Source: Patiriisocius marinistellae (lineage in GTDB: Bacteria; Bacteroidota; Bacteroidia; Flavobacteriales; Flavobacteriaceae). Taken from it: DNA of 64,000 bases. This document shows, one piece after another, positions 573 to 59,000 of this stretch (positions are counted from its first letter, which is position 1; every line of letters starts with the position of its first letter). The DNA is taken from contig NZ_BKCF01000001.1 of the NCBI RefSeq assembly GCF_009014635.1, positions 1,178,001-1,242,000 of the forward strand. The letters run 5' to 3'. The notes beneath the pieces are model-generated. The model saw nothing but the letters and a program-made list of their open reading frames with translations, did no database searches and had not been told where the DNA came from. Both the position numbers and the translations under genes were made by a program.

Positions 573-2208
573 ATTCTTTAACAAACTTCTTACTTAAACG
601 TTGTCCGTTTTCAGTTTCCAAAATAAGGAAATATGTTCCGCTGGCTAGCGATTGAATATTGACGGTATTGTTTTGGATGTTAGCGTTTATTGCTACACCT
701 AATAATGAAGTAATCCGAGCTTTAGGTTTTAAAATTTCCGAAGTATTTATACTTAAAGTTGTTGTCGCTGGAATAGGAAATAATTCGATAGTTGTATTTG
801 TTGAAATTTCAGAAATTCCTAAAATGGGATTACTTCCTTCCTCTACAAATAGTGCTTCGTTTACTGAAACATTTTCAATAAAATCTACCACTCCAGATGG
901 CCATTCTATTAATACTGAGGTTACTTGTGCTGCATCGCCCAAGCCAAAATGTGGATTTAATGTATGCGCTTGTAAAAATCCAATGCCGCTTTGTACATGC
1001 CGCACTTGAGTTCCAAAATCTCCCGTTATTGTGATGATGGCGCCTATGCCGTTAGGGTTGCTTTCAATGCCTTTAAGGTTTAATGTTAGATAATTGTTTG
1101 AGTTGCCATTATTAACAAGTAGTTTGTCTGTTGTGGTTGCTTTTATATCTAAAAAACCATCGTTGTTAATGTCTCCCACGGTACCTCTACCTAATATGTC
1201 GGTTGTATTTTGAGTAAATGTTAAATCACCATTATTCAAGAAAATGCCTTGCCCAAACTCTGCATAAATATCGATAAATCCATCATTATTAAAGTCGAAA
1301 GCTACGATTGTAACACTTTGATCCTGCCCTTCAAATCCAGAGCCCATTGTCATATCTGTAAACGTTCCATCCCCATTGTTAATCATCAATTTTGTGCCTA
1401 TTTCGTTATTGTGTTGATCAGCAACAACCAAGTCCATATCGCCATCATTGTCAAAATCTCCTGTTGCTGTTGACCAAGACTGAACTCCTAAATCTACACC
1501 TGCCGCTGGAGCAACATCTGTAAATGTACCATCGCCGTTATTGCGATGTAGTTGATCAACACGTCGTGGATCTGTTGGGCCAGTTCCACCACCAGCAATA
1601 CATTTTGAAATGTAGACATCCATATCCTTGTCTCCATCATAATCAAACCAAATAGAGCCGTAGTTGCCACCACCTGGTGTGTCACCTATGCCTCCTTGAT
1701 TGTCTGGTAAAAAATTACCTGTACCATCATTAATAAAATAATTATTAGGGCTTTCATCATTACACATAAATCCATCAATAAATCCATCATTATTGATGTC
1801 TATAAAATTTCCGCGTTGACAGAAAATTGAGGTTGTGCTTGTATCATTTTCAGTAAATGCAGTTCCGTCAACATTTGCCTGTAAAAAACTTACGCCAGTT
1901 TCTGCTCCATACATTAAATCATTAATACCATTGTTGTCGTAATCTGCAACAGCAAGGCTCCACTCAGCACCATGAGTTACCGTAGTGGGTATTGTCGTCA
2001 TTTCTAAAGTTCCAGCAGTACTTTGATGATATATAAAAAGATTGTCTGCTTTAGGTATAATTATGTCATCAAGATAATCACCATTTACATCACTAATCCC
2101 GTAAATGAGATTTGTGGGCGTAATAGTTTGCTCAGTAAACGTTACATCCTGTGCATTTACAACTGTATTTAGGCAAATAATAGTTATAAGCGTAATTAGG
2201 TTTTTCAT
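571..2208 (-). CDS. Secreted FG-GAP/VCBS repeat protein with UnbV/ASPIC domain and type IX sorting tail
   Basis: 545 residues. Residues 1-19 are a Sec signal peptide ending in VNA|Q. From about 40 to 370 there are repeated Asp/Asn-rich calcium-binding loops of the FG-GAP/VCBS kind (DINNDGFIDGF, FDYDGDKDMDVYIS, GDFDNDGDMDLVVAD), which suggest a beta-propeller. An ASPIC/UnbV (CRTAC1-like) domain follows, with GIGAIITITG and HFGLGDA. The last ~75 residues form a type IX secretion sorting domain (ELFPIPATTTLSIN ... LASGTYFLIL ... KKFVKE). It is therefore predicted to be exported by the PorU/PorV machinery encoded at 54.9-60 kb and to sit on the surface or be released. Ligand unknown. The start lies 18 bp after lysS on the same strand, so the two may share a transcript. 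Confidence 0.88.
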   Translation of the reverse strand: MKNLITLITIICLNTVVNAQDVTFTEQTITPTNLIYGISDVNGDYLDDIIIPKADNLFIYHQSTAGTLEMTTIPTTVTHGAEWSLAVADYDNNGINDLMYGAETGVSFLQANVDGTAFTENDTSTTSIFCQRGNFIDINNDGFIDGFMCNDESPNNYFINDGTGNFLPDNQGGIGDTPGGGNYGSIWFDYDGDKDMDVYISKCIAGGGTGPTDPRRVDQLHRNNGDGTFTDVAPAAGVDLGVQSWSTATGDFDNDGDMDLVVADQHNNEIGTKLMINNGDGTFTDMTMGSGFEGQDQSVTIVAFDFNNDGFIDIYAEFGQGIFLNNGDLTFTQNTTDILGRGTVGDINNDGFLDIKATTTDKLLVNNGNSNNYLTLNLKGIESNPNGIGAIITITGDFGTQVRHVQSGIGFLQAHTLNPHFGLGDAAQVTSVLIEWPSGVVDFIENVSVNEALFVEEGSNPILGISEISTNTTIELFPIPATTTLSINTSEILKPKARITSLLGVAINANIQNNTVNIQSLASGTYFLILETENGQRLSKKFVKE

Positions 2209-2226
2209 ACTGAAATTTTAAAACAA

Positions 2227-3918: not shown

Positions 3919-3935
3919 GTGTAAAATTTAAAGCA

Positions 3936-3943
3936 CAAAATTA
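3936..3943 (-). promoter_or_regulatory. Bacteroidetes-type -7 box for lysS
   Basis: Minus strand reads TAATTTTG, matching TAnnTTTG, 17 bp before the lysS ATG. No good TTTG -33 box is present at the usual distance. Confidence 0.4.
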
Positions 3944-3998
3944 GCCTATTTGCTCATTTTACGCGGCTTTTTTCTTCTGAAATTTCTTAGATTATAAA

Positions 3999-4041: not shown

Positions 4042-4054
4042 CTATTCCATAGTC

Positions 4055-4591: not shown

Positions 4592-5647
4592 CTAGTTATA
4601 TAGAGACTTTACTGCATCACGGTTTTTTACGCCAAGCTTCTTATAAAGATTGTTAATGTGACTTTTTACAGTGCTTATACTCACAAATATTTCAGTAGCA
4701 ATCTCTTTATTTGTTTTGTCTTGTAGAATTAAATCCAATACTTTTTGTTCTTGAGAAGAAAGTGATTGCTTTTGTTCTGAAATGTGCTTGGTTTGTTTTA
4801 ATTGTTTTAAAAAATAAAGATTGAAGAAGAAAGAAATAATAGTAACACCCGAAACCAAATATATCCACCACGGCAACCCTTTGTCTTCAAACGGGGCAAT
4901 TAGCATTTTATCTGCAGCAAGTTCGGCTTTATATTGATTTGTGTAAGTAGAGTTGGGGTAGGTTGTTTCCAGCCTGTTTAATAAACTGTCATAATAATCG
5001 CTTGATTTTAAATCCTCCACATAATAAGAATGTAGATCATTTGAGCGATCACTTAAAAAAGTATAACTATATAATTCAGCGAGTGGTTCATTGAGTTGTT
5101 CGCCGTATAATTGTAAAATATTAAACCATTTTTTTGAGTTTACTTTTCGGTTTGCTTCACTGCGATAGGTTCCAAATGCAAAACGCATGTCGTTTTTGAG
5201 AGAGTCTATTTTGAGAAATGCATTTGCTCTTTCATTTGGCGAAACAATACGACAAAACATTTCGTTTTCAAAGCCAAAAGGCAACTCAAGTTTAGTTGTA
5301 TTGTTTGCCACAAATACAATCTCTTTACTATTAAGGCAATGCCCTGTAAAATGAGAAGTTTGTTGTTCCTCCTCTGTGCAATTATCAATGTGGATGCGAT
5401 AAATTCGGTTTTCTTTGTTAAGGTTATCACCTTGAAAGGTAAACTGACCGCTGCTATCTGCTCTAGTTTTATTAAGGATTTGTTCTGGATGGACACCGTT
5501 AATTTTTCGGTAATCTTCTACTAAAGACAGATATATGTTTCCGTTGGCATACTCTTCGGTTACTTTTCCGCTGAAATGATACTGCGCCGTTATATTCAAT
5601 GAGCACAAAAGTAAAATGAGAAAAGTTATTTTTTGAGGTTGTGACAT
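4592..5647 (-). CDS. Membrane-anchored LuxR-type transcriptional regulator
   Basis: 351 residues. Residues 1-21 are a signal peptide or signal anchor ending ITAQ. The next ~220 residues are an extracytoplasmic region with a beta-rich start (YHFSGKVTEEYANGNIYLSL). One membrane helix (WWIYLVSGVTIISFFFNLYFL) follows at about residue 258, then a short cytoplasmic linker and a GerE/LuxR helix-turn-helix at the C-terminus (LSSQEQKVLDLIL, NKEIATEIFVSISTVKSHI, LYKKLGVKNRDAV). The layout suggests a one-component sensor that binds DNA from the membrane. Regulated genes are not evident. The start codon overlaps one copy of the ATTTCCGAAG motif (5646-5655). Confidence 0.82.
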   Translation of the reverse strand: MSQPQKITFLILLLCSLNITAQYHFSGKVTEEYANGNIYLSLVEDYRKINGVHPEQILNKTRADSSGQFTFQGDNLNKENRIYRIHIDNCTEEEQQTSHFTGHCLNSKEIVFVANNTTKLELPFGFENEMFCRIVSPNERANAFLKIDSLKNDMRFAFGTYRSEANRKVNSKKWFNILQLYGEQLNEPLAELYSYTFLSDRSNDLHSYYVEDLKSSDYYDSLLNRLETTYPNSTYTNQYKAELAADKMLIAPFEDKGLPWWIYLVSGVTIISFFFNLYFLKQLKQTKHISEQKQSLSSQEQKVLDLILQDKTNKEIATEIFVSISTVKSHINNLYKKLGVKNRDAVKSLYN

Positions 5648-5663
5648 TTCCGAAGTTAAGCTA

Positions 5664-9129: not shown

Positions 9130-11559
9130 CTAGTTAATAGTATATAAAAGAAATTCTTTTTCATCCGCAGTTACTAATACTTGAAGAGATTTTGATTTGG
9201 AAACATCAGTGATGATCGCTGCAGAAGTTCCATAAACTGGGAAGCCGTTTATAAGTGTACCATTATTATCATAAACATAGACTTTATTTTCTTGTGATTC
9301 TGTTACGGTAATATAGCCTGTTTTGTTAAAGAAAAACAAATTAGGTTTTGTGTAAATGCCAAAGGGTAATTCAATCAATCTACCATTAACCCTAAGCAAA
9401 TTATCATTTAAAGACACCTTCAATTTAGTATCAATATTGTAAAAATAATCTGTGGTAACATTCAATTTTTTTGTAGTCACATTTCCGCTTTGCGATATTG
9501 TTTTTTGTTCATTTTCTGAAGTTATAAACACAAATGAATTGCCATCTTTTTGAACATCAGATTTATTAAGTTTAAATTTTTCTGAAACTTTAATTCGCTC
9601 TTTTCCTGTACGACTTAAAATATTTAACTTCCCGCTTTCCTCTTGAAATAACAAATAATCTTTATTACCTAACCGTATGTGTTGTGGAGTAGCAATTATC
9701 TTAGATTTAGCTTTTTTTAATGTAAAACCTTTTACGGCTTTACCTTTACTATCAAGCATTATCACTTCATTGCTTTGTATAATTACAAATCTATATTTAC
9801 GATTATTATCATAGTCAAAAACTGCAAGAGGTTGTGTAATTTCATCTTTATACGAAATAGGAAATGGGGAAACATCCTTGCCGTTCTCATCCACAACAAA
9901 CATTTTATTCTTAGTTACAAACGCAAGTTGTTTTCTGCCATTACGTTTAATATCTATTTCTTTAATATCGCCTAAAATGGGCTCGTCAATTTTTTTTGAC
10001 CACAACAATGTGCCATCGCTAGAGTGAGCATTCAAATTATTTGTAACATCTTGAAACGCAATGCTTTTTTTGCGATTTCCTCGTGTTGAGAAATATACGG
10101 GATTTCCTAGAATAGTTTCATTTATAGCAATCGATGAAGGTGCCGAGACACCAGCTATAGCAGTCGAATTGCCACTATTTTCGCTAGTTACAAAGTTGAG
10201 GTGTGCAAAGTTATTTTCAAAAGTATATTGAGCGATTGCAAGATCGTAGCCGCTTATTTTTTTGAAGTTTATATTTTTTTCAGTCTCTCCAATAAGGCTA
10301 TTCAACATTTGAGGCACAGCTTTATCACTACCTATTTCGCAATATGTTATAGTTCGGGTAAGGTTTGTATTGATGTCTTTATAAGCATTTGATTTTGATA
10401 AAACAGCACCGCTCATAATGGCACTACTTATGTTTTCTGCGGAAATTTCTGAAGAACAAAAAATGAAGTAACCATTAAACTCGAACATAAAATTAGCACC
10501 ATCAAGCGCTATGATTTGTCCAAATTTATTTTTAAAATAATCTGGTGAGTTAAACTTATAAATAGTGGTATTTCTAAATTCTTTTACTTCCGAAATTTCA
10601 GCTTCAAGGTTTTCAAAAGCTATTTGACTGTCAATACTTTTTGCAATTAAAAAGGACTCACCTTCTCGAGAAACTTTCGCAATTTCATTGAAAGATTCGG
10701 CTATTCTTAAAACAACTTTTGTAGAATCATTTTTAAATTTCCGAAGATTTTTAAATAATAATTCTGCATCATTATAGGTGAAAACGGTTGCAGTATTTAC
10801 GTCACTTGGTATAATTGACGGCACGGTCAGCTCTTGTGGTGTTTGTCCTTTAAAGTATGAAAGAAGCGGTTTAAGAGTGTCTCGCTCCATTAAAATGCCT
10901 GCTGCTTGAGTAACAGGGTCATCTTTAATAATATGAACAGAAGTCCATACGTTTTTAGTCTTGTTATTTTTTAATACTGTTAGTCCGTTTTTAGGTGGCA
11001 ACTGTATTAGTTTTTGAAATGTACTGTCGTTAAAAGTTATGTTTCCTATTATATTTTTAATAGGAGATAAGTGAGATCCTATTACAAATGTGCTATCTAT
11101 AGAGGTGTAAAAATGTACTTGTTTTCCTATAGTAACTTTAGTTACTTTCTTTTTATTAAAGGTGAGTGTTTCTACCTTTTTGTCTTTAATACTATCAAGT
11201 ACTATTGGTTTCTTAGGCTGCTTGGTTATATATGTATAGTGTGAAGCAAGGCTGTCACTATTTGAAAAAGCGAGTATACTTTCCCCCGTGATTTCAAGTT
11301 GTTTGATAATAGGATTTGTAATAAAAGAATTATTGAACATAATTCTTTCTGTTTTTGAAAAAAGCGTATTGTTTTGAAAATCCTTAAGTATCGTTTTGAA
11401 AGACTGGGAGCTACTATCTTCTTGGTTTATTCTATATACTAGTGTTGTGTTTTCTGGAAGAAATTGATAGAGTGGCGCGTCACTTCTTGATGTGTTTTCA
11501 CATGCAAAAAGCGTACTCAGGATTATTAATATTACAATACTATATATTCCAATTTTCAT
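9130..11559 (-). CDS. Large lipoprotein with C-terminal propeller-like region
   Basis: 809 residues from the ATG at 11559. A longer frame starts at 11631, but the residues from Met25 of that frame (MKIGIYSIVILIIL ... LFAC) form a normal lipoprotein signal, and a TAGCTTTG -7 box lies 12 bp upstream of this ATG, inside the longer frame. The N-terminal ~500 residues resemble DUF3352-like envelope proteins (LYQFLPENTTLVYRIN). The C-terminal ~300 residues carry propeller-like repeats (DGTLLWSKKIDEPILGDIKE, DENGKDVSPFP, DSKGKAVKGFTL, NGTLINGFPVYG). No catalytic motif is seen. The stop of the upstream rnhB lies about 80 bp before this start. Function unknown; an outer-membrane or periplasmic scaffold is an inference. 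Confidence 0.75.
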   Translation of the reverse strand: MKIGIYSIVILIILSTLFACENTSRSDAPLYQFLPENTTLVYRINQEDSSSQSFKTILKDFQNNTLFSKTERIMFNNSFITNPIIKQLEITGESILAFSNSDSLASHYTYITKQPKKPIVLDSIKDKKVETLTFNKKKVTKVTIGKQVHFYTSIDSTFVIGSHLSPIKNIIGNITFNDSTFQKLIQLPPKNGLTVLKNNKTKNVWTSVHIIKDDPVTQAAGILMERDTLKPLLSYFKGQTPQELTVPSIIPSDVNTATVFTYNDAELLFKNLRKFKNDSTKVVLRIAESFNEIAKVSREGESFLIAKSIDSQIAFENLEAEISEVKEFRNTTIYKFNSPDYFKNKFGQIIALDGANFMFEFNGYFIFCSSEISAENISSAIMSGAVLSKSNAYKDINTNLTRTITYCEIGSDKAVPQMLNSLIGETEKNINFKKISGYDLAIAQYTFENNFAHLNFVTSENSGNSTAIAGVSAPSSIAINETILGNPVYFSTRGNRKKSIAFQDVTNNLNAHSSDGTLLWSKKIDEPILGDIKEIDIKRNGRKQLAFVTKNKMFVVDENGKDVSPFPISYKDEITQPLAVFDYDNNRKYRFVIIQSNEVIMLDSKGKAVKGFTLKKAKSKIIATPQHIRLGNKDYLLFQEESGKLNILSRTGKERIKVSEKFKLNKSDVQKDGNSFVFITSENEQKTISQSGNVTTKKLNVTTDYFYNIDTKLKVSLNDNLLRVNGRLIELPFGIYTKPNLFFFNKTGYITVTESQENKVYVYDNNGTLINGFPVYGTSAAIITDVSKSKSLQVLVTADEKEFLLYTIN

Positions 11560-13456: not shown

Positions 13457-15358
13457 ATGAAGCACTATTTATTTTTCTTTTTTCTTTTCAGTTTTATAGT
13501 CTTAAGCTCTGCTCAAGTTGATGTTGAGCGTATTAAGGCACCGCCTAAAAATGAAAAACCACCTATTGATATGTATGAGATAATTTCGCATGAGCGAGAT
13601 ACTACATATCTAGATACCACATTAAGTATTCAAAAGGATTACAAATTTAATTATTTGCGTAGAGATGATTTTGAATTATTACCATTCTCAAATGTGGGCC
13701 AAACATATAATTCGCTTGCGGTTGATTTCAGCAGTAAACATTTGAAGCCTAAATTTGTTGCGCAATCACATCATTTCAATTATTACGATATTGAGGATAT
13801 CAACTATTTTCACGTGCCAACTCCATTAACAGAATTATACTTTAAAACCGCCTTTGAACAAGGTCAACAATTAGATGCCTTTTTTACAGTAAACACTTCA
13901 GAGCAATTTAATTTTTCGCTTGCTTATAAAGGGGTTCGGTCCCTTGGTGAGTATCAGCATATATTAACAAGTACTGGTAATTTTACATTTACTAGTAACT
14001 ATCATACAAAAAATAAAAAATATAATATACGCGCTCATGTTGCTGCCCAAGATGTATTGAATCAAGAAAATGGTGGACTTAATGATAATTCACTTGCGCT
14101 ATTTATAGCAGATGATGATGAGTTTTCAGACCGTGGTAGACTTGATGTAAACTTTGAAGACGCGGAGAACAAACTTGAAGGACTTCGTTTTTATTTAGAA
14201 CATGAATATGAGCTGCTTGCACAGAGAGACAGTGTTAATTACAACGTGCTCAAAATAGGGAATACGGTAACGTATGAGGATAAATTTTTTGAGTACAGAC
14301 AAGTTGCGCCTTACACACCTTACGGTAATTCTTATGAAAATTCGGGGTTATTAACAAAGACAAAACTAGAGGATTTTAATACTAGCGTATATGCAAATTT
14401 ATCGAGTAGTCTCTTCGGAAATATTAGCGCCTTTACTAAATATACTGACTATAACTATGGGTATAATACGGTTATCCAACTTACGGATGAATTTATCCCA
14501 AACCGCCTTAAAGGTAACATAGTAGAAGTAGGGGGAGCTTACCAAAAAGAATATCGCGGATTTGAACTTAAAGGAAAAGCAGCAATAAACATCAATGGTG
14601 ATTTTGATGGTAATTATATTGAAGGCTCCGCAGGCTATGCGCTTGATAAAGACAATAAGGCAACAGCCTCAATTAGTATTCACAGTGTAGCGCCTAATTT
14701 TAATCTTCTTTTGTATCAAAATGACTATGTCAATTACAACTGGAAAACTGAATTTAATAACGTAAAAACCCAAGAATTAAAATTTCAGCTCCAATCAAAA
14801 AAATTGGCTGATGTTTCAATAAGTTACACCGGGATTGATGATTATACATATTTCGGAATACAGCCTAACGATTCTACGCCCACACCACAACAGTTTAGCG
14901 ACCGTGTAGATTACTTAAAAATAAAGCTTGAAAAGCAATTTGAGTGGAAGCAATTTGCGTTAATGAATACAGTAATGTATCAAAATACAGTAAGCGGGGA
15001 TGAAGTTTTTAACGTACCTCAAATAATAACTCGACAGTCATTGTACTACAAGGATGAGTGGTTTAAAAAGGCTTTGTATTTAGAAACTGGAATAGGATTT
15101 AAGTATTTTACTAAATACAATATGAATGCTTATGACCCAATACTTGCTGAATTCTACGTGCAAAATGAACAAGAAATAGGTGGATTTCCACTAATAGATT
15201 TATTCTTCAACGGAAAAATTAAACAAACCCGTATTTTCTTTAAATGGGAAAACTTCAACCACATGTTTAAAAAGGAAAACGATTTTTTCTCAGCTCCAGG
15301 ATATCCTTATCGTGATGCTGTAATACGTTTTGGGTTAGTGTGGGATTTCTTCCTTTAA
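13457..15358 (+). CDS. Putative outer-membrane porin (Porin_10-like)
   Basis: 633 residues from the ATG at 13457; the in-frame TTG at 13433 lies inside the -7 box and is rejected. Signal peptide 1-20 (KHYLFFFFLFSFIVLSSAQ). The mature chain starts with a Pro/Lys/Arg-rich stretch and continues as alternating amphipathic strands rich in Tyr, Phe and Asn, ending FGLVWDFFL, a terminal-aromatic beta-barrel signature. The pattern VGQTYNSLAVDFSSKHLKP followed by YFHVPTPLTELYFKTAFEQG matches my recollection of the Bacteroidetes putative porin family (Pfam Porin_10). Transported solute unknown. It stands alone, convergent with the six-gene operon downstream. Confidence 0.82.
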   Translation: MKHYLFFFFLFSFIVLSSAQVDVERIKAPPKNEKPPIDMYEIISHERDTTYLDTTLSIQKDYKFNYLRRDDFELLPFSNVGQTYNSLAVDFSSKHLKPKFVAQSHHFNYYDIEDINYFHVPTPLTELYFKTAFEQGQQLDAFFTVNTSEQFNFSLAYKGVRSLGEYQHILTSTGNFTFTSNYHTKNKKYNIRAHVAAQDVLNQENGGLNDNSLALFIADDDEFSDRGRLDVNFEDAENKLEGLRFYLEHEYELLAQRDSVNYNVLKIGNTVTYEDKFFEYRQVAPYTPYGNSYENSGLLTKTKLEDFNTSVYANLSSSLFGNISAFTKYTDYNYGYNTVIQLTDEFIPNRLKGNIVEVGGAYQKEYRGFELKGKAAININGDFDGNYIEGSAGYALDKDNKATASISIHSVAPNFNLLLYQNDYVNYNWKTEFNNVKTQELKFQLQSKKLADVSISYTGIDDYTYFGIQPNDSTPTPQQFSDRVDYLKIKLEKQFEWKQFALMNTVMYQNTVSGDEVFNVPQIITRQSLYYKDEWFKKALYLETGIGFKYFTKYNMNAYDPILAEFYVQNEQEIGGFPLIDLFFNGKIKQTRIFFKWENFNHMFKKENDFFSAPGYPYRDAVIRFGLVWDFFL

Positions 15359-15448: not shown

Positions 15449-17134
15449 CTAATTCAAACTATCCAAAATTCTTTGCGCAGCAGCTCTCAGAGAGTCATTG
15501 ACTTCGTTTTTTCTTAAAACTGAATCCGCTTCAAACAAAGGATTTTCTTGATTTAAATCTATATCCTTTTTACTAGAATTTAAAACTTCATCACTTAAAT
15601 TTTCACTTGTTTGCCATGTTTCGCCCATTTGTTTTAAAATGGTTTCTTCCCAAGTGGAGGGATGTTTTGCATCTACCCAAATTACATCACGATATTCTGT
15701 GTCAATTAAAGCCAAATCTGGCGTTGCAGCACCGTCAAATTTTTTGCTGTTGTCACGTTTTGCTGCAACTGTGCTAATGACAAACATGCGTTTGCGTCCA
15801 GCTATTTTTTTGATAAATGGCCTAAACTCAACAGGTTTGTTTACAGACCAATCGTATTCTTTTCTAGATTCAATTACCTTAAGGGGCATGGCACTAACTC
15901 CCGCAAGACCTTCTTTTTTTGCGCCATGATTATAATAGTATAATTTGTCTGTTCCATCTGCTGGAACAAGAACACTAAACGCTAAACTTGTACGTTCTTC
16001 GCCAATAGGTTCTAGTCCAAACCAATGATGCAAACCATTATAAGCATCGTAAGGCATATCTGCAAAATCAAAATCTGTTACAAAGGGTTGTTGGTTTTCA
16101 TCGTCTTTTAAATCTGGAATTTTAACCGCGGTTTCCATATTCCAAGGTAGTGGGTCTGTAAACCCACCAAGAAACTGTAATGATTGTGCTTGTAATCTTG
16201 ATACGTTTTCAGCAAGGGTGTTTTGTTTTGTGAGGAAAGGGTATTGTTGCGTTTGGTCTGGAGCAACATAGGTTCCTTTTCCTATTGTTATACGCTCTAA
16301 ATAATCTGTTGTGTCGTGTTCGCCTGGTTCAATAATCATAACGCCGCCATACGAAGGGTAAGGGAAAAAGAAACCTTTCCACTTAATTAAACTCACTACT
16401 TGCACCCATTTTCCTGTATCATCTTTCATGTAGAAAACCTCACTAGGCTCTAACGTAAATAATTGAAAGAAATTAAATCTTTGCACTACTGCATTATACG
16501 TATTGCGTGAAAAAGCTAATGACTCTCCAATAGCAAATGTTACGGGAATTCTATTTTCTCCAGCAAATCTTGGGAATGGGGAGGTGCTCGCTACGGTAAA
16601 AATTTCCTCTGTATTATCGCTCATGCGTTGCCATGAATATTCCTTTGCAGGTTGTACAGCCATTGTCCACTGGTTTACACTATCAACACGCACTAGTTGT
16701 GGCGGAGAGACTTCTTGCGTTTCACCAATAGACTCATACGCCATCGTCACAATATTGTTGTATGGCTGTATACGTTCATTACGAGTAAGTGGTAATTCGT
16801 CAATTTCTACGAGGTTAAGATTGTTAAATACATTATAAGTTTGCATGTAATTATACATTCCAGTATTCCAGCCCAAGAACCAACCCGTAACAAAAAAGGC
16901 TACGATACCTATTAAAATAAGTATTCGTTTTCCTGCACCTACGGCAGCTCTAAATTTAGAAAGTGTAAACCATAGGAATAAAACACTCAAGAGGATGATG
17001 AAGATATATTTCCGAAGAAATAACAACGCTGGTTGATAGTCATCTCTTAGAAAAAACAATAGTAACAACAAAATTACCCCACCAATGATAATGATGCGCT
17101 TTTGTTTTCCTCCTTTTTGCCAATATGTTTTCAT
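15449..17134 (-). CDS. Unknown membrane protein, last gene of the AAA+ operon
   Basis: 561 residues. A basic start (KGGKQKR) is followed by three membrane helices at about residues 12-29, 41-58 and 69-88. The remaining ~470 residues, probably outside the cytoplasm, are mixed alpha/beta with Trp and Pro (WVQVVSLIKWKGFFFPYPS, PLPWNMETAVKIPDL). The C-terminus is acidic and helical (LRKNEVNDSLRAAAQRILDSLN). No known domain or catalytic motif is recognised. It starts 20 bp after the 174-residue membrane protein and is last in a six-gene minus-strand run, so it is likely the membrane end of that system. It carries one ATTTCCGAAG copy (17008-17017). Confidence 0.75.
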   Translation of the reverse strand: MKTYWQKGGKQKRIIIIGGVILLLLLFFLRDDYQPALLFLRKYIFIILLSVLFLWFTLSKFRAAVGAGKRILILIGIVAFFVTGWFLGWNTGMYNYMQTYNVFNNLNLVEIDELPLTRNERIQPYNNIVTMAYESIGETQEVSPPQLVRVDSVNQWTMAVQPAKEYSWQRMSDNTEEIFTVASTSPFPRFAGENRIPVTFAIGESLAFSRNTYNAVVQRFNFFQLFTLEPSEVFYMKDDTGKWVQVVSLIKWKGFFFPYPSYGGVMIIEPGEHDTTDYLERITIGKGTYVAPDQTQQYPFLTKQNTLAENVSRLQAQSLQFLGGFTDPLPWNMETAVKIPDLKDDENQQPFVTDFDFADMPYDAYNGLHHWFGLEPIGEERTSLAFSVLVPADGTDKLYYYNHGAKKEGLAGVSAMPLKVIESRKEYDWSVNKPVEFRPFIKKIAGRKRMFVISTVAAKRDNSKKFDGAATPDLALIDTEYRDVIWVDAKHPSTWEETILKQMGETWQTSENLSDEVLNSSKKDIDLNQENPLFEADSVLRKNEVNDSLRAAAQRILDSLN

Positions 17135-17682: not shown

Positions 17683-18924
17683 TTAGTTTTTTATCGCGTT
17701 ATTAATAATTTTAATTGCCCAATCTTGGTGAGAAGCATTCCATTTTAAATAAGCTTTGTAAAATTGTGCTTTATCATACCAATACAGGTGTAAAATATCT
17801 AGCGGTGCAATTTTAGAAAGCAGCTTCCAGATCAATTCTTGATGCTCTAATTCTAATGATGAGTGAGGTTTGTGTAGTGCTTTAAAGTATGCGTTACTCA
17901 CTATGTCTTCGCGCTTTGTTTGGTTGCTTAATGCTAATTTATCAAGATATAATTCAACACCCATTATTTCTTTTCGTGTGTCAATGTCAAGTTCGTTGAG
18001 GTATTTTTTGAATAAAAATTGATTTTCTAAAATTTCATCTATACCATGCTCGGGAGTTTTTAATTTTCCAGCAAATACGTTTTTTTTAATTCGTTGATAA
18101 CGTTCATCATTTATAGCTGCCTTTAAATCAATCTCAGCGATGAGGTGGTCTTTTAATAAATCCACTAGCTCATCATGGTCTTTGTGAAAAAGCATTACAT
18201 CATGATCTGTATCTTTAATTGCTTTTTTAAACATCTCAATATCTTCAAAAACCATTACATCTTTTATAAAATCGCGGAGTAAAAAAACGCCGCCAAAAGC
18301 TCTTGTGTAAAAAGATGAAACATTAAGCGATAGCGGTTCGAAATCTAATTTTCGAATACGTAAATCGCCATAATTTTTTGCCGAATTTAATAACTGGTGG
18401 TGTATTTCTCTATCTATAAAGTTATTTCCATCATTGAATTTTTTAACTAATTGTTGTTGCTCTTTTTGATGTTTAGTCAAATCATTTAACAAACTAAAAC
18501 TTACCGAAATATGCTTGTATTTAAGCAAATCAAACGGGCTATAAAATGCGTCAATATGCTGGTCAAGATGTACAACAATTGCGCTATCCTTTGTTATATC
18601 TCTAATCTGTTTATTATAAGCTGTGAAAATGGCATGCATTAAATCACGGTCAAAACTATGTGATGGCATAAAAACAGGCTTCCCTTTTTGCTCTGGTGAA
18701 ATAATTATAGCATTAGGGTTTGCATCACCAACGTTGAGATAAAAATTCTCGTTTTTTTCTTCGGAAATTTCTGGACTCCAACCCATCGCATCAATTGAAA
18801 AATATAATAAGCTAGTTGGACTTACACCAAGCATGGCAAGACAATCGTTATAGCGCTGTGCTAACGATCCCGAAACGGGAACTAACCCACTACCAAATAA
18901 TCCTGCCTCTTTTAGTTTTTTCAT
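17683..18924 (-). CDS. Unknown cytoplasmic protein (possibly DUF6638) of the AAA+ operon
   Basis: 413 residues without signal peptide or membrane helix. The start reads MKKLKEAGLFGSGLVPVSG, then RYNDCLAMLGVSP and GWSPEISEEK, a pattern I associate with the family DUF6638; this name is from memory and should be checked. FYLNVGDANPNAIIISPEQK suggests a Rossmann-like or beta-rich core. No catalytic motif is evident. It follows the AAA+ gene by 96 bp; a short hairpin (18931-18948) lies just before its ATG. It carries one ATTTCCGAAG copy (reverse, 18761-18770). Likely a partner of the ATPase by operon position. Confidence 0.75.
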   Translation of the reverse strand: MKKLKEAGLFGSGLVPVSGSLAQRYNDCLAMLGVSPTSLLYFSIDAMGWSPEISEEKNENFYLNVGDANPNAIIISPEQKGKPVFMPSHSFDRDLMHAIFTAYNKQIRDITKDSAIVVHLDQHIDAFYSPFDLLKYKHISVSFSLLNDLTKHQKEQQQLVKKFNDGNNFIDREIHHQLLNSAKNYGDLRIRKLDFEPLSLNVSSFYTRAFGGVFLLRDFIKDVMVFEDIEMFKKAIKDTDHDVMLFHKDHDELVDLLKDHLIAEIDLKAAINDERYQRIKKNVFAGKLKTPEHGIDEILENQFLFKKYLNELDIDTRKEIMGVELYLDKLALSNQTKREDIVSNAYFKALHKPHSSLELEHQELIWKLLSKIAPLDILHLYWYDKAQFYKAYLKWNASHQDWAIKIINNAIKN

Positions 18925-21120: not shown

Positions 21121-21140
21121 CACCCTTGAAATTTCCGAAG
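21121..21140 (+). repeat. 20-bp repeat copy containing the ATTTCCGAAG motif
   Basis: CACCCTTGAAATTTCCGAAG is identical over 20 bp to 45289-45308 inside manC. Here it lies between the AAA+ gene and the 350-codon gene, 15 bp past the stop of the latter. Confidence 0.8.
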
Positions 21141-31844: not shown

Positions 31845-32927
31845 ATGATGTTTTCTCAAAAATTAATAAAACAGAATTACCACGTTATAGGTGTAATGAG
31901 TGGAACCTCACTAGATGGAATTGACCTTGCCGAAGTTACATTTAGCATTTCAAAAAAAGGGGAGTGGTCTTATAAATTTGGCAAAGCCGAAACGGTACCA
32001 TACCATGAAAGTTTAAAACAAGAATTGCAGGATGCTATTTTGTTTTCAGAAAAAGCGTTGAATAAGCTAAATATAAGATACACCCGTCATATTTCCGAAG
32101 TTATCTCTGCATTTGTTGATAAGTTTAAAATTGAAAGTATTGATGCGGTTTGTAGTCATGGACACACCATTTTACATCAGCCGGATAGTGGTGTAACTCT
32201 TCAAATAGGTAATCTTCCAGAAATAGCTGCCTTGATTGGGCAAAGAGTAGTTTGTGACTTTAGGGTTAAAGATGTACAATTAGGTGGTCAAGGAGCGCCA
32301 CTTGTTCCCATTGGGGATAAACTAATATTTAAGGATTTTGATTATTGTTTAAACCTTGGCGGCTTTGCAAATGTGTCACTTGATAATAATGGAAAGCGTG
32401 TTGCTTATGATATTTGCCCTGTCAATATTGTCCTTAATAGTTATGCAAATTTATTAGGATTTCCATACGATGATAATGGAAACATCGCTAGAGGTGGAAC
32501 GGTCATAATAGAAATTTTAGAATCTTTAAACCAACTACCGTTTTACAAAAAATCACCACCTAAATCCTTGGGTCTAGAATGGGTTAAAGAAAACATATTC
32601 CCAGTCCTAGAAGCCTCAAATACAACAAAAAAAAATAAAATAGCAACCTTTACAGCACACATTGCTAACCAGATTGCACATCAATTTAAAACAAATAGTA
32701 AAGTACTTGTAACTGGAGGTGGGGCTTATAATACATTCTTATTAGAAGAAATTAAACGTATTAATCCTGTTGAGTTAGTAGTTCCAGAGTCTCAATTATT
32801 AGAGTTTAAAGAAGCGTTGATTTTTGGTTTGCTCGGTGTTCTGCGGTTGCGTGGGGAAATAAATTGCCTGCAAAGCGTTACGGGTGCAAGTGTTGATTGT
32901 TCTGGAGGAAATATATTTGAAATATAA
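31845..32927 (+). CDS. anmK: Anhydro-N-acetylmuramic acid kinase
   Basis: 360 residues. It phosphorylates and opens anhydro-MurNAc to MurNAc-6-phosphate during cell-wall recycling. Motifs: VIGVMSGTSLDGIDLAEV at the N-terminus (phosphate loop), SHGHTILHQP, CDFRVKDVQLGGQGAPLVP, NLGGFANVS, and LVTGGGAYNTFL near residue 285. The upstream TTG at 31839 overlaps the -7 box and is not used; the start is ATG 31845 or the next ATG at 31848. It is divergent from the acyl-CoA dehydrogenase gene. Confidence 0.95.
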   Translation: MMFSQKLIKQNYHVIGVMSGTSLDGIDLAEVTFSISKKGEWSYKFGKAETVPYHESLKQELQDAILFSEKALNKLNIRYTRHISEVISAFVDKFKIESIDAVCSHGHTILHQPDSGVTLQIGNLPEIAALIGQRVVCDFRVKDVQLGGQGAPLVPIGDKLIFKDFDYCLNLGGFANVSLDNNGKRVAYDICPVNIVLNSYANLLGFPYDDNGNIARGGTVIIEILESLNQLPFYKKSPPKSLGLEWVKENIFPVLEASNTTKKNKIATFTAHIANQIAHQFKTNSKVLVTGGGAYNTFLLEEIKRINPVELVVPESQLLEFKEALIFGLLGVLRLRGEINCLQSVTGASVDCSGGNIFEI

Positions 32928-34534: not shown

Positions 34535-34692
34535 CTTCGGAAATTTTAAAAGTGTTAGAAACTATGGTAGAATTTTTATTTAAAAGAAACCAAAACACAT
34601 TTGCAATTATTTATATTTGTTACTGAAATATACCAACCTAAAAAAATGTTTAAAATGAATCAATTGTAGCTACGCTAGTCAAATTTCCGAAG
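34535..34692. repeat. Pair of inverted ATTTCCGAAG motifs in an intergenic region
   Basis: CTTCGGAAATTT at 34535-34546 and AAATTTCCGAAG at 34681-34692 are exact 12-bp inverted copies flanking the likely promoter of the dehydrogenase gene. Confidence 0.7.
34612..34619 (+). promoter_or_regulatory. -7 box for the amino-acid dehydrogenase gene
   Basis: TATATTTG, exact to TAnnTTTG; the leader to the ATG at 34756 would be about 135 bp. Confidence 0.35.
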
Positions 34693-34755: not shown

Positions 34756-35982
34756 ATGAAAGAACTACTTAAAAAATACGAAAATAAAGAGCCTGAAATT
34801 GTATTCCATTGGAACGATGCTGAAACTGAAGCTGAAGGATGGACAGTAATTAACTCATTAAGAGGAGGTGCTGCAGGTGGAGGAACGAGAATGCGAGTGG
34901 GATTAAATGAAAATGAAGTTTTATCCCTTGCTAAAACAATGGAGGTGAAATTTACTGTTTCTGGTCCTGCAATAGGTGGCGCTAAATCTGGAATTAATTT
35001 TGACCCAAGCGATCCTCGTAAAAAAGGGGTATTAGAGCGCTGGTACAAAGCTGTTTCGCCATTATTAAAATCTTATTATGGAACTGGAGGAGATTTAAAT
35101 GTTGATGAAATCCACGAAGTAATCCCAATTACTGAGCAAAGTGGCGTTTGGCATCCACAAGAGGGGGTTTTTAATGGCCACTTTACACCAACCGAAGCTG
35201 ATAAAATTAACCGTATAGGACAATTGCGTCAAGGAGTAATAAAAGTTTTAGAAAACACTACGTATTCCCCTGATGTATCAAGAAAATACACCGTGGCAGA
35301 TATGATAACGGGTTACGGGGTTGCTGAAGCAGTACGTCATTATTATGATATCTATGGCGGAGACGTTAAAGGAAAACGTGCCATTGTACAAGGATTTGGA
35401 AATGTAGGAGCTGCCGCAGCTTATTATTTAGCACAAATGGGAGCAAAAGTTGTTGGAATTATCGATCGAGTGGGTGGAATAATCAATAAAGATGGATTCA
35501 GTTTTGAGGAGATTCAACAGTTATTTTTAAAGAAAGATGGGAATACACTTGTTGCTGATAATATGTTGTCTTTTGAAGAAATAAACGAACAAATCTGGAC
35601 ATTAGAATGTGAGGTGTTTGCACCATGTGCTGCATCACGTTTAATTACAAAGGGACAAATTTCTCAAATGATGGAAACTGGTCTAGAAGTTATAAGCTGT
35701 GGTGCCAATGTGCCATTTGCCGATAAAGAAATTTTCTTTGGAAGTATTATGGAATATACTGATGAACGTGTTTCTTTAATTCCAGATTTTATAAGTAATT
35801 GTGGAATGGCTCGCGTATTTGCCTATTTTATGGAACGTAAAGTACAAATGACAGACGAAGCTATTTTTAATGATACATCGATGACCATTAAAAATGCGAT
35901 TCGTAATACCTATGATAATAATAGTACAAAAACAAACATTAGTAAAACAGCGTTCGAAATTGCTTTAAAGCAACTAGTATAA
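34756..35982 (+). CDS. Glu/Leu/Phe/Val dehydrogenase family enzyme
   Basis: 408 residues. NAD(P)-dependent oxidative deamination of an amino acid. The N-terminal domain has GGAAGGGTRMR and SGPAIGGAKSGINFDP with the catalytic-region Lys, and YYGTGGDLNVDE. The Rossmann domain has the dinucleotide loop VQGFGNVGAAAAYYLAQMGA with Asp in GIIDRVGG, and ECEVFAPCAASRLIT later on. The protein is closer in layout to leucine/valine-type enzymes than to 450-residue GdhA, but the substrate cannot be assigned. The next gene, nhaD, begins 29 bp downstream on the same strand. Confidence 0.9.
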   Translation: MKELLKKYENKEPEIVFHWNDAETEAEGWTVINSLRGGAAGGGTRMRVGLNENEVLSLAKTMEVKFTVSGPAIGGAKSGINFDPSDPRKKGVLERWYKAVSPLLKSYYGTGGDLNVDEIHEVIPITEQSGVWHPQEGVFNGHFTPTEADKINRIGQLRQGVIKVLENTTYSPDVSRKYTVADMITGYGVAEAVRHYYDIYGGDVKGKRAIVQGFGNVGAAAAYYLAQMGAKVVGIIDRVGGIINKDGFSFEEIQQLFLKKDGNTLVADNMLSFEEINEQIWTLECEVFAPCAASRLITKGQISQMMETGLEVISCGANVPFADKEIFFGSIMEYTDERVSLIPDFISNCGMARVFAYFMERKVQMTDEAIFNDTSMTIKNAIRNTYDNNSTKTNISKTAFEIALKQLV

Positions 35983-44724: not shown

Positions 44725-45816
44725 TTATGTATATTTTTTACCGTGAGTGTTTTCAACTTCCACTAGTAGTTTTTTAATGTCTTGCTCTTTTTTCTTCGGA
44801 AATATTAATAACGTTTCAGCTTTATCTACAATTATATAATCATCAATGCCATCAACAACAATTAACTTTTCGGTTTCCGAATAAATCATATTCCCTTTTG
44901 CATCCGTCAACATGGGGATACCTCTCACAACAGCATTATCACCTTCATTTGTAGTCATCTTGTCGTGCAATGCGCCCCAAGTGCCTAAATCATTCCAATC
45001 AAATGTAGCTTTTTTTGTGAATACATTATTTGCTTTTTCCATAATTGCATAATCGATGGAAATATTTTCGGAAAGCTCATAATTTGTAGCAATAAAATCC
45101 TTTTCTTCTGTGGTGTTATACACAGGAATTCCTTCAGAAAACAAGGCGTGCATGACAGGTTCGTTTTTCTCAAATGCTTCAGAAATTGTTGCAACACTCC
45201 AAATAAAAATGCCTGCATTCCAAAGAAAATTTCCCTCGTTTAAAAATTTTTTCGCCGTCTCATAATCTGGTTTTTCTCTAAATTGTGCCACCCTTGAAAT
45301 TTCCGAAGTACTATTTTTATCAGCTTCAATATAGCCATAACCTGTATTTGGAAACGTTGGGTTGATGCCTAAAGTCATTAATATATTATCATGTTGCGCT
45401 GCGTCAAAACATTTTTGCACGTCATTTGCAAATGCGTCCTCGTCCTCAATCCAGTGGTCACTAGGTGCAACTAGCATTACCGCGTTAGGATTTTCCTTTT
45501 TAATTTTTAAAGCAGATAACAAAATACAAGGAGCTGTGTTGCGCATAGCAGGCTCAAGAACAACTTGTTTTTCTGAAATTTCTGGGAGTTGAGATAGCGT
45601 TAATTCAAGATAGCGTTCGTTAGTCAAAATCAAAATATTCTCTGACGGAATCAACTTATTGAGTCTAGAAAAGGTTTGTTGTAGCAAGGACTTTCCTGTG
45701 CCTAACATGTCATGAAACTGTTTAGGGAATGATGATGTGCTCACTGGCCAAAACCTAGAGCCAATACCACCTGCCATGATCACTGCGTAGTAATCTTTCG
45801 TAGTGCTTTCTTTCAT
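44725..45816 (-). CDS. manC: Mannose-1-phosphate guanylyltransferase
   Basis: 363 residues. It makes GDP-mannose from mannose-1-phosphate and GTP for surface polysaccharide. Nucleotidyltransferase motifs: VIMAGGIGSRFWPVSTSSFP (GTP binding), LVAPSDHW, FREKPDYETA, FLWNAGIFIWSV and FDWNDLGTW. It is the guanylyltransferase domain alone, without the isomerase domain of bifunctional enzymes. It lies between sprT (32 bp upstream) and the DUF389 gene (2 bp downstream). Two ATTTCCGAAG copies lie inside it (44794-44803 reverse, 45299-45308). Confidence 0.94.
   Translation of the reverse strand: MKESTTKDYYAVIMAGGIGSRFWPVSTSSFPKQFHDMLGTGKSLLQQTFSRLNKLIPSENILILTNERYLELTLSQLPEISEKQVVLEPAMRNTAPCILLSALKIKKENPNAVMLVAPSDHWIEDEDAFANDVQKCFDAAQHDNILMTLGINPTFPNTGYGYIEADKNSTSEISRVAQFREKPDYETAKKFLNEGNFLWNAGIFIWSVATISEAFEKNEPVMHALFSEGIPVYNTTEEKDFIATNYELSENISIDYAIMEKANNVFTKKATFDWNDLGTWGALHDKMTTNEGDNAVVRGIPMLTDAKGNMIYSETEKLIVVDGIDDYIIVDKAETLLIFPKKKEQDIKKLLVEVENTHGKKYT
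45289..45308 (+). repeat. 20-bp repeat copy inside manC
   Basis: Identical over 20 bp to 21121-21140, although this copy is coding (minus strand, reading through TSEISR) and the other is not. Confidence 0.8.
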
Positions 45817-54897: not shown

Positions 54898-54901
54898 TGG
54901 T

Positions 54902-56062: not shown

Positions 56063-56098
56063 GAGGTATAAAAATTTTGACAAATATAAATTTTAATT

Positions 56099-59000
56099 TT
56101 ATAGGATAACTAGTTTTTCAATTTTTTCAGTCTGCTGGTTAGTTAACGGAGATTTTACAGTAATCTTATAAACATACACACCTTTTCCTATTCGATCACC
56201 AAAATCATCTCTTCCATCCCAGATAATTTCTCTAATGAGGTTGCCACCATTTGTAGGGTAACTTCCTGAAATTGTTTTTACAACCTTCCCAGTAACAGTG
56301 AAGATTTGTACTTGAACATCTAAAAATGGTTCTTCAGCTTTATTGTGGTTAAACCAAAACTCAGTATAGTTAACAAAAGGATTAGGGTAGTTAAGTACAC
56401 GGTCTAATGCTAATTCTCCGTCGCCAGTGACTATAAATTGTATTTCTGCTGTGGAGGAATTGTTGTAGGTGTCCCATGCTTTTAAAGTAAGTGTATGTAG
56501 TCCTTCTTCTAAATCTCTTAATTTATATGTTGTTGTTCCATTTGTGTAATCATCAACATTAGCTTGATAATAATCATTTAGTTTAAATGGGTTTTCTTCA
56601 TCTCCGTCAAGAATTGCAATAATATCATGCCCAATACCGCTAGCTGTATTAATACCATTTCCGTCTTGAAGATTTGCGATAAGGTTAGGGGAATCATTTG
56701 TAATTCCTCCAGAGACAAAACTCTCATCGTTCATAAATAATTGAATAATAGGTCCTGTGGTGTCTGTTCCTGCATTGGGGTTGAGTCCTCCCACTTGCAC
56801 ATCTAGATTAAATCCTGTATTATCTAAAAGTATATTTTCTTTTTGAGCATAAAAGCTTACTTTTCCATTGCCCACTGGAATTTGAACATCTTGGGGTACA
56901 ATGAAATCTACCTCAAATTCACCATTAGTTACAGTCGCCTGTCCATTAAAAAGAATCTCTCCAAGTGTTGTAAAGTTTAAGATGGCTAGGCCTCCATTAT
57001 TAGGGAATTGCGACCCGTCATTCCCTAGTGTTTGTCGTTCTTGTCTTTTGTCAAATAATTTTACTTCCACAACACCATTGTAAGTTGGATCTAATGCTCC
57101 AGATGCGGTTGTAACTTGTCCTCCTAGTTTTGCGTAGCTTAAACCTTGTAATACAATACCGCTTTGTGAAATGGGTGCGTCGTTAATTGTAGTAAGGCGA
57201 ATGTCTTTCTTCGGAAATGCTAATGGCATTGCAGGATCTCCCACATAAAAAACTACGCGTCTGTTTGAATTTCCAGCAAGTTCATTTTTTGAAATTCGAA
57301 GTCCTTCGGCTGGTAGGTCAGGGATGTCTTGTCCAAACCCAAAAATTTCATCAGCAAGTAATTCATTTAACATTGAGCCTGTTCCTACACCAATGGAGCG
57401 CGTTGTTGTTATTAATGAAATAGCACCTCCATCTTTATTCCAGTATGTTAACTCACCCGCTGTGGTTCTTGTAGGTAGATCAAATTTTGTAAACTCACAG
57501 GTTACCGTTACAATTAATGGATATCTATTCTCATTTCTTAACGTGAGGGCTGTCTCTTTTGTAAATATAAATTCTTTTGCAAGACCATCTTCTCCACCAT
57601 GACCAAAATAATTTACAATTAAAGCACCTACTTCAATATCGTTTTTTACTATGCCATTAACTTGAGGATACCTATTACCTCCAGCTGAGGTTTGTTGTTC
57701 AAATGCATCTATATGTATTTTTTTAACATTAACAAATGGTTTTGCAGCCGATATGTCGTCAGCTAATCCATCTAAAGTAAGTTGAAGTGAATTAAATTCG
57801 GAATATGTATCTGCGTCATCAGAAATCATTAAAATATTATTTCTCCAATTACCGTAAGATGCTTTTGCCTCGTACGCAATAATTTTATCTACTAGGGTGT
57901 TTGCCAGTCCTACGTTATCAGCAACCATTCTCCCTAAAGCAATATCTAATGTCTCAGTGTCCTCCATTTGTCCTTCCTCTTGCTCCATCATGCCATAGAA
58001 GTCATCACTCATATAGGAGGTGAATGTACTTGTGCTCTGTTGCGTATGAAAGGTAGGTACTGTGTTGTTGTTTCCAGGTAATCTGTTTTTATAATCTACA
58101 GAGGTGTCACCAAAAAAATTAATATATTTTACCCGTTTATCTGGAGCGGAAGCGTTTTCATATACATAACGTACAAAATTACGAATAGCTCCTATATCCT
58201 GTTTTCCACTAGAAAACTCTTGGTAAATTTTATCTGTTGTTACAACTTTTACACTAGTGCCTCTAATGTTTCGGTGGTGGTCTGCTAATCTTAAAGCAGG
58301 TTGTATCAAAAAGGGTGCGGTAATAATCAAATAGTCAATATCTTTAAAATTTCCGGAGGCATCATTAAAGATTGTTCCTTTGAGGTTTTGGTTAGGTACA
58401 TTGCTACTGCCTATTTCAACAGGTTGTAAGTAGTTTGATGGATTTATGGCAACATATTCTCTAATTTCACCTAAGGTAGCTTTAAAGCTGAAATTTCCGG
58501 CATTTGATTCATTTTGTGTTGATGTAATATTTTGTGGATTTGTAACATCCCAAACTTGAGAAAATTGAGAGGCATTACCTATTGAATATTCACCAACACC
58601 AGATTGTGTTGCTACATTGTTATTTCTGAATTGAAGTTGTCCATCTGTTCCTACGAGTTGGCGTAAGGCGTTAATACGAATAAAATCTAAATATCCCTTA
58701 CTTGAAGGGTTGTTGCCGTTGTTGTAAAGCATGTTGATAGTAACAATGTCTCCACTTGCTGGAATTTGAACAGGAGCAATATTTGTAGCTGGTTGAACGC
58801 TTAGTAAAGTGGGTTCGTTTATAACATTAAATGTAACAGGGTTTAAAGCAGCACCATTTACAGAAATTGCCATTGAAGTAGGGTTCTCAGAGGCAGATGC
58901 AATTCTATACTCCATTTCCATAGTACTACCAGGAACTATATTTGGAAAAGTGAGTTCAAATGTTTGGTCATTTTCAATGTCAAAACGATTTCCAAACCAG

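Follow-up and report, generated by a model that had tools for sequence, protein, structure and literature searches.

A dispersed ten-base word as a candidate DNA uptake signal in Patiriisocius marinistellae and related Flavobacteriaceae

The ten-letter word ATTTCCGAAG, which is non-palindromic (it differs from its own reverse complement), is scattered through the genome of Patiriisocius marinistellae and has nearly all of the genomic hallmarks of the known uptake signals (USS/DUS). We consider it fairly probable that the word and its flanks are a genomic uptake signal, a candidate partner of a DNA-uptake system that would be a pilus-free machine like that of Riemerella. The evidence comprises abundance, non-polarity, even spacing, a preference for non-coding DNA, divergent pairs and flank preferences. 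Variants of the word are tolerated, its sites turn over, related genera share it, and the constraint acts at the DNA level.

The window, the whole stretch of 64,000 nt that was analysed, contains all 13 exact copies reported in the initial annotation, 8 on the plus and 5 on the minus strand. Two positions needed correction: the minus copy placed at 18761 starts at 18759, and a near-match placed at 55770 starts at 55766. The annotation's estimate of ~0.14 copies expected by chance agrees with the order-3 Markov value of 0.139, and dinucleotide-shuffled windows held a mean of 0.10 copies (maximum 2 in 100 shuffles). Matches with at most one mismatch numbered 29, against 4.6 expected, and the word ranks first among over-represented 10-mers of the window under the order-3 model. 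The sites are as follows.

734..743, plus strand: exact copy, inside gene 571-2208(-)
5646..5655, plus strand: exact copy, overlapping the start of gene 4592-5647(-)
10437..10454, no strand: imperfect palindrome of overlapping one-mismatch copies on both strands, from the mismatch search
10737..10746, plus strand: exact copy, inside gene 9130-11559(-)
14413..14422, minus strand: exact copy, inside gene 13457-15358(+)
17008..17017, plus strand: exact copy, inside gene 15449-17134(-)
18759..18768, minus strand: exact copy, inside gene 17683-18924(-)
21131..21140, plus strand: exact copy, intergenic
32091..32100, plus strand: exact copy, inside gene 31845-32927(+)
34535..34544, minus strand: exact copy between genes, the left member of a divergent pair whose starts lie 148 bp apart
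34683..34692, plus strand: exact copy between genes, the right member of the pair begun at 34535
44794..44803, minus strand: exact copy, inside gene 44725-45816(-)
45299..45308, plus strand: exact copy, inside gene 44725-45816(-)
57209..57218, minus strand: exact copy, inside gene 56099-59998(-)

The whole genome (G000; other G numbers denote related genomes) has 833 copies, compared with 16 of a reversed-word control, a density of one exact copy per 4.0 kb and one matrix site per 2.3 kb. Background models were run on an 864-kb sample (26% of the genome). Its 224 copies are far above the 1.5, 1.7 and 7.2 expected from Markov models of order 2, 3 and 4. Models of order 5 and 6, into which most of the word itself is absorbed, expect 29 and 134. 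Summed over all 30 one-mismatch words, the sample holds 215 copies (~102 expected under the order-4 model), and the 224 perfect copies, although more than chance predicts relative to these, are not the "many more" that typify USS/DUS. That the constraint lies on DNA rather than on protein, as had been proposed from the varied reading frames, is borne out by codon choice. ISE tripeptides are encoded with ATTTCCGAA in 43 of 196 cases where codon usage predicts 3.9, and the word likewise encodes FPK 14 times (0.6 expected) and FGN 36 times (3.6 expected). These tripeptide counts rule out an origin of the word in protein sequence or codon usage, and the enrichment is not explained by codon or dipeptide usage. 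An RNA tetraloop reading of CTTCGG was set aside, since genes carry copies on either strand.

Copies split 405/428 between the strands, and orientation has no link to GC skew, our proxy for replication direction. The lack of strand bias first seen in the window extends to the genome, and the absent polarity speaks against a polar site of the KOPS or Chi type. The description of the copies as mostly inside genes is correct as a count (10 of 13 in the window overlap predicted genes), but relative to its amount non-coding DNA is preferred: in the 864-kb sample CDS holds 137 of 224 copies, against 91% for random positions, and non-coding DNA, ~9% of sequence, holds 39%. Coding copies fall in four main registers. 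Clusters of matrix sites are spread more evenly than random, with a variance-to-mean ratio per 5 kb of 0.69 (Poisson 95% range 0.80–1.21), or 0.62 once the two poorest of 41 stretches are removed; exact copies alone appear only slightly even (0.90 per 10 kb). These two are L031:1-16026, a copper-efflux island in which 1 matrix site stands against ~7 expected, and L036, in which 0 stand against ~8.7 expected. Pairs of matrix sites within 200 bp are divergent in 41 cases, convergent in 12 and tandem in 18, and 2000 strand shuffles gave a mean of 18 and a maximum of 32 divergent pairs. Spacing within pairs extends to 200 bp, and some inverted pairs are very close. Flank preferences are weaker than the core: T at −3, A at −1, A at +12/+13, and AT tracts around −11 to −17 and −28 to −36, at roughly helical spacing. 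Almost no positions are conserved beyond about −36 and +30.

At least 100 copies of the word are carried by 25 of 394 genomes, with levels graded among related genera of the family and copy number inside one genus spanning 833 to 6. The flank also shifts within the genus, base 0 being mostly T in G006 and G007; in pooled relatives the upstream flank signal is weak. Orthologous sites show high turnover. The comparison, enlarged from 11 to 23 sites, found 4/23 identical in G006/G007 and 12/23 with three or more differences, and site identity of 17% against 6–8% is a modest excess. The ten bases face ungapped sequence in 22/23 alignments, while the reverse comparison, starting from G006, shows gaps opposite 3/8 sites. 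Over 80 kb of G008 and 100 kb of G010, both motif-poor, no other word stood out as a clear counterpart. Dokdonia/Nonlabens-type genomes carry a different word, the perfect palindrome CGCTTTCGCGAAAGCG, which is possibly a sister signal. This palindrome is present in phages at host-like density, an observation that uptake does not readily explain.

Passages of Redfield et al. (2006) give the USS/DUS profile as no orientation bias, regular spacing, close opposite pairs, non-coding preference, strong consensus and AT-rich flanks. The USS of Haemophilus and other Pasteurellaceae resemble the word in several respects: they have a strong core of 9–10 bp, lie evenly spaced on both strands and in opposite pairs, favour non-coding DNA, vary between subclades, and are flanked on one side by AT-rich tracts about a helical turn apart (the 3' side with the word read as CTTCGGAAAT). 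Unlike them, the word here is of different sequence, has A-rich DNA on its opposite flank too, and comes from a genome in which we found no pilus ATPase (4/28 candidates scored); its uptake role is a candidate one. The published density of USS/DUS is about 1 per kb, higher than that of the word. Neisseriaceae DUS are also alike, being of 10–12 bp with a strong consensus and lineage dialects; as described in PMC3630211, they are bound by ComP, and in Simonsiella 1294 DUS form overlapping dyads. Such dyads are comparable to the divergent pairs here and to the Dokdonia/Nonlabens palindrome. ComP is a pilin, and binding by it distinguishes DUS from the word, a candidate signal.

Among the roles proposed in the initial annotation, an uptake signal fits most tests, the Chi and nucleoid roles are weakened, and a methylation target fits poorly. 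A Chi-like site, at which a helicase-nuclease of AddAB/RecBCD type would halt degradation and load RecA, is an unlikely alternative; divergent pairs or the Dokdonia/Nonlabens palindrome would then serve enzymes arriving from either side. Chi sites are likewise short and over-represented. A PDDEXK_1 protein, with a frame of ~900 aa in most, occurs in 16/16 genomes tested and is taken as AddB-like from length and domain only, and a second, weaker PDDEXK match is present in 14/16 (absent from G000 and G020). The even spacing of matrix sites and the palindrome in phages would also suit such a site. Described Chi sites, however, are strand-biased, 5–8 bases long and read as single strand, whereas the word is without polarity to GC skew and is 10 bases long, with AT tracts that reach to about −36. 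Motif-poor congeners have the nuclease just as often, and 95 viral stretches with the extended word (849 kb) hold 0 second exact copies, compared with 4 of the reversed control.

A site bound by a protein that organises the nucleoid or chromosome, and that requires its sites to be paired and regularly spaced, would account for the even spacing and divergent pairs, and the AT-rich flanks suggest a bending protein. We regard this as rather improbable in view of the high turnover of sites between G000 and G006/G007 and of the range of copy number within one genus.

It is very improbable that the word is a highly iterated sequence kept through DNA methylation together with mismatch repair, the explanation put forward for HIP1 of cyanobacteria. 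HIP1 is likewise genome-wide and lineage-specific, and the perfect palindrome of Dokdonia/Nonlabens resembles it; PMC4390886 describes HIP1 and alternate HIPs as restricted to particular lineages and linked with methyltransferases. Methylation fits poorly, however, because ATTTCCGAAG is a 10-base non-palindromic word with flank preferences. Least credible is a terminator element or a mobile repeat dispersed in the manner of REP or MITE sequences, which the inverted pairs, some very close, would suggest, but which sits badly with the loss of conservation past about −36 and +30 (no shared element body was seen), with 137/224 copies lying in genes in four main registers, with the mostly ungapped orthologous alignments (3/8 gapped from G006) and with pair spacing of up to 200 bp.

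For the candidate uptake signal, the machine suggested by the gene content is one without a pilus. Four first-look candidates were scored per genome in the search for the type IV pilus ATPase that known USS/DUS users have, and those scored in G000 (4/28) gave no T2SSE match at E≤0.001, which leaves pilus-based uptake unsupported here. A full-length pilus ATPase was found in 5/25 motif-rich genomes, a sixth (G233) having a short match at cut-off only, and 88/394 genomes overall were over the cut-off; its presence does not track the word. Riemerella anatipestifer transforms without pilus homologues, requiring a DUF5689 protein, an outer-membrane protein, an HHH protein, ComEC, DprA, ComF and others (PMC8459023). 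G000 encodes ComEC, HHH_3 and DprA, plus a barrel-like/DUF5689 gene pair. DUF5689 was over the cut-off in 26/27 tested genomes with 100+ copies, the one genome below it being a bin of 59% completeness whose match was weak, and also in 32/42 motif-poor genomes tested; motif-poor congeners have ComEC, HHH_3 and DprA as well. Almost all genomes have the competence genes that we tested, and their presence does not follow that of the word. Trees of the barrel-like protein (40 sequences), DUF5689 (40) and a neighbouring nuclease (39) required 7, 9 and 8 changes of motif class, against shuffled means of 16.0, 15.9 and 15.4. All three cluster by motif class alike, so nothing receptor-specific emerges and a receptor-dialect correlation was rejected. 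A PDB search with the DUF5689 alignment matched in the C-terminal part only, to one chain (8jiy_A, a DUF4955 protein), and as the sole match this leaves a DNA-binding fold of DUF5689 unsupported.

In the mechanism that we propose for the uptake signal, a surface receptor, perhaps the DUF5689 protein or its barrel-like neighbour, would bind double-stranded DNA bearing the site, which would thus be recognised during uptake, and the AT tracts might aid bending of the duplex for entry. The importer would be a pilus-independent machine of outer-membrane, DUF5689 and HHH proteins with ComEC, ComF and DprA. Site-bearing DNA would be imported and recombined preferentially, and repeated transformation between relatives would accumulate and maintain copies wherever the sequence tolerates them. 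In the transformation of R. columbina, own DNA competes more than foreign DNA, and for the failure with F. johnsoniae the authors consider a missing signal on PCR fragments among the reasons (PMC7965970).

Among the matches listed, no open-licence PMC text names an uptake signal shown in Flavobacteriaceae, and of the listed PMC texts that contain the 10-mer none has a title on such signals. The literature drawn on here deals with uptake signals of Pasteurellaceae and Neisseriaceae, users of type IV pili. We suggest, tentatively and at a little below an even chance, that sequence-specific uptake may have evolved independently in Flavobacteriaceae, with ATTTCCGAAG (this genus and its kin) and CGCTTTCGCGAAAGCG (Dokdonia/Nonlabens) read by an outer-membrane barrel and a fast-evolving DUF5689 surface lipoprotein, not by a pilin. 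If true, a signal in Bacteroidota that works without a pilus would mean that transformation gated by sequence arose with machines of more than one kind; it would open the receptor of the pilus-free machine to direct tests, and would suggest a route to transforming marine Flavobacteriaceae.

All 13 exact copies of the word (ATTTCCGAAG, or CTTCGGAAAT on the opposite strand) listed for the window in the initial annotation are present, and it is the window's top over-represented 10-mer. Its coordinates carried only small slips, with one copy at 18759 rather than 18761 and one near-match at 55766 rather than 55770. The hand estimate of about 0.14 expected copies agrees with an order-3 Markov model (0.139); shuffles gave 0.10. 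Genome-wide (3,338,299 bases, 30 contigs) the word occurs 833 times (405/428 by strand), against 16 for the reversed word. Judged by the protein encoded at 34756–35982, the closest relatives with a name are a Flavobacteriaceae bin UBA1903 (94%), uncultured Ulvibacter (92%), and Ulvibacter litoralis and Aequorivita (91%), which places the window in Ulvibacter or a near relative. Detailed counts were made in the window plus 40 further stretches, a sample of 864 kb. Here there were 224 exact copies, where Markov models of orders 2–4 predict 1.5–7.2. One-mismatch versions totaled 215 in the sample, with ∼102 expected; the commonest tolerated substitution was C6 to A (62 vs. 6.3 expected), and others were A8 to C (21 vs. 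2.3) and A8 to T (13 vs. 2.4). Scanned with a weight matrix that covers the core plus its near flanks and was trained on the same sites that it then scored, the sample gave 375 sites above 14 bits, or one per 2.3 kb, against 9 in equal-length Markov-2 sequence.

The word has four main registers within genes, and the proposal that DNA rather than protein is constrained was borne out. For a given peptide, the exact DNA spelling was much commoner than codon usage predicts in four of six registers (ISE, 43 vs. 3.9; FPK, 14 vs. 0.6; FGN, 36 vs. 3.6; LRK, 4 vs. 0.2) and slightly commoner in the other two (SE, 73 vs. 46.4; FR, 8 vs. 5.2). The word is a real, strong, genome-wide signal at the level of DNA.

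Conservation extends to the near flanks, with T at -3 (0.72), A at -1 (0.79) and A at +13 (0.64); these are common to the variant ATTTCAGAAG. Beyond them lie AT-rich tracts at about -11..-17 and -28..-36. With scrambled words in 630 contexts as the reference, A+T excess reached z of 8.2 at -36..-28, 5.4 at -17..-11, 6.6 at -4..0 and 8.9 at +11..+19, and was less raised or absent between tracts (3.4 at -27..-18; -1.0 at -10..-5). Wider surroundings were likewise AT-raised (z 2.3–4.5), because many copies are intergenic: only 137 of the 224 are genic, against 91% of random positions. Genic copies taken alone showed the pattern more clearly: the four tracts had z of 4.7, 3.1, 4.0 and 5.2, and the stretches separating them 0.9 and -2.7. 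Pooled relatives (congeners G006 and G007, and G381 of another genus) had a strong tract downstream only; upstream T tracts were seen in G006 taken alone.

The reported lack of strand bias was upheld, orientation being unrelated to local GC skew (forward/reverse 49/56 at positive skew, 56/63 at negative). For the nine-base core in G381, a single contig, the corresponding figures were 11/17 and 28/35. Clusters of matrix sites were spaced more evenly than Poisson (variance/mean 0.69; Poisson 95% range 0.80–1.21), and exact copies alone gave 0.90 per 10 kb. The two site-poorest of the 41 stretches were L031, whose first 16,026 bases are a copper-efflux island (1 matrix site), and L036 (0 sites); without them the ratio was 0.62. 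L036 encodes an efflux pump, a phospholipase, a beta-lactamase-fold protein and genes of no known function, and is not evidently mobile. Pairs less than 200 bp apart comprised 41 divergent (CTTCGGAAAT...ATTTCCGAAG), 12 convergent and 18 tandem; the maximum number of divergent pairs in 2000 strand shuffles was 32.

We aligned 23 copies to orthologous sites in G006 (13) and G007 (10). Four showed no difference, five one, two two, and 12 three or more; control 10-mers were identical in 6–8%. Individual sites are thus gained and lost. Where a single base had changed, four of the five resulting variants are ones over-represented in this genome (GTTTCCGAAG, ATTTCCGCAG, and ATTTCAGAAG twice); the remaining one, ATTTCCGAAA, is not. 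Across the genus, copies range from 833 down to 6, the six lowest counts coming from small bins of 77–90% completeness. Among 394 Flavobacteriaceae genomes, 25, spread over several genera, had at least 100 copies, with strands roughly balanced (worst imbalance 64/41); in many others the word was rarer than its reversed control.

Other words were seen locally. ATTTCAGAAA was in excess at loci of congener G007 (L200–L206) and of G008 (L212–L215), even where the main word is rare (8 vs. 0.4 in 80 kb of G008). In Ulvibacter litoralis (L043), a 21-kb stretch has 8 copies of TTCCGAAGA vs. 0.7 expected, with exact ATTTCCGAAG absent, a possible local dialect. Two Lacinutrix loci (L071, L080) each hold 10 copies of GCAAAAGCA vs. 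∼0.5, perhaps another lineage word.

A different word, the palindrome CGCTTTCGCGAAAGCG, dominates seven Nonlabens/Dokdonia loci (L069, L056, L057, L058, L067, L090, L104). Its 13-base core TTTCGCGAAAGCG numbers 571–1664 per genome (both strands) in five of the 394 (G020, G232, G357, G186, G200) and at most 35 in the rest, where it is clustered. In P. marinistellae, 9 of 11 matches (five places) fall in ∼12 kb of contig C1, within the copper-efflux island (L031:1-16026; C1:1070001–1086026), poor in the host's own word. Two palindrome places lie exactly 933 bp apart in this genome and four others (G094, G099, G111, G208), and this shared spacing suggests one widely exchanged element. The palindrome also occurs at host-like density in viral contigs (loci L253, L236, L246 and L221, on three contigs). 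Of the three that were checked, one has a tape-measure gene and the other two carry terminase, portal or capsid genes. Its presence in phages speaks against the palindrome serving uptake alone, though prophages do reside in the chromosome. The palindrome's right half resembles our word, which is no more than a hint of kinship between the two. The one paper matched by the palindrome's 11-mer core was unrelated by title.

A HIP1 reading of the word fails on palindromy, the word being non-palindromic. A Chi reading fails on polarity, the word being non-polar with respect to GC skew, and also on length and flanks. The uptake sequences of Haemophilus (USS) and Neisseria (DUS) come closer. In the available text of Redfield et al. 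(2006) they are described as having ∼1 copy per kb, unbiased orientation, spacing of above-random regularity, some close opposite pairs, a bias toward non-coding DNA, occurrence in relatives, and perfect copies far above one-mismatch ones; USS has AT-rich flanks spaced about one helical turn. The word shares these features except for density, which is lower, and for the perfect copies, whose excess over mismatched ones is slight. Dialects are also described for DUS, as are overlapping dyads possibly pointing to a dimeric reader (Frye et al. 2013, available text).

Haemophilus and Neisseria use type IV pili for uptake (PMC7965970, available text). The pilus ATPase does not track the word. It was full-length in 5 of the 25 motif-rich genomes, with a short cut-off-level match in a sixth, and T2SSE exceeded the cut-off in 88 of 394 genomes (four first-look candidates scored per genome). 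In P. marinistellae (99.95% complete), none of the four candidates scored, of 28, matched T2SSE at E ≤ 0.001. Riemerella anatipestifer, which its authors place in Flavobacteriaceae, can be transformed although it lacks pilus homologues; its transposon screen found ComEC, DprA, ComF, RecA, DUF5689, outer-membrane, HHH and DUF1343 proteins essential (PMC8459023, available text). In R. columbina, competing self DNA lowers transformation at doses where foreign DNA is ineffective, and k-mer ranking, in the text available, gave A/T-rich words only (PMC7965970).

P. marinistellae carries ComEC, DprA and an HHH_3 protein. It also has two paired genes, one for a CarbopepD_reg barrel-like protein of 952 aa and the other for a DUF5689 protein of 472 aa, adjoined by a divergent endonuclease/exonuclease/phosphatase gene. 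Of the genomes tested, DUF5689 exceeded the cut-off in 26 of the 27 that have 100+ copies of the word, all six with 68–92, all five with the palindrome, and 32 of the 42 that are motif-poor. Nine of the ten lacking a match are small and belong to other genera, and the tenth is an 83% complete congener; these absences are confounded by genome reduction. Proteins of ∼725 aa with two DUF5689 matches each, vs. ∼470 aa in most others, were noted in congeners G005 and G006 and in G267 and G381 of another genus (L371, L373, L374, L375). Gene trees, which carry no support values, put the DUF5689 proteins of P. marinistellae and G007 closest to other-genus proteins, while the nuclease neighbours of these two are closest to each other. 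The P. marinistellae barrel-like protein likewise lies closest to another genus; G005 and G006 pair inside the genus for both DUF5689 and nuclease. These trees hint at a surface determinant that is exchanged or fast-changing.

We do not claim USS/DUS membership, because the usual uptake machine was not found among the candidates scored in P. marinistellae. On most genomic tests, though not on the pilus, the word looks like these sequences and is a candidate uptake signal. The Riemerella-type machine may be a condition for it, though not a sufficient one, since DUF5689 is near-universal in motif-rich genomes and also frequent in motif-poor ones.
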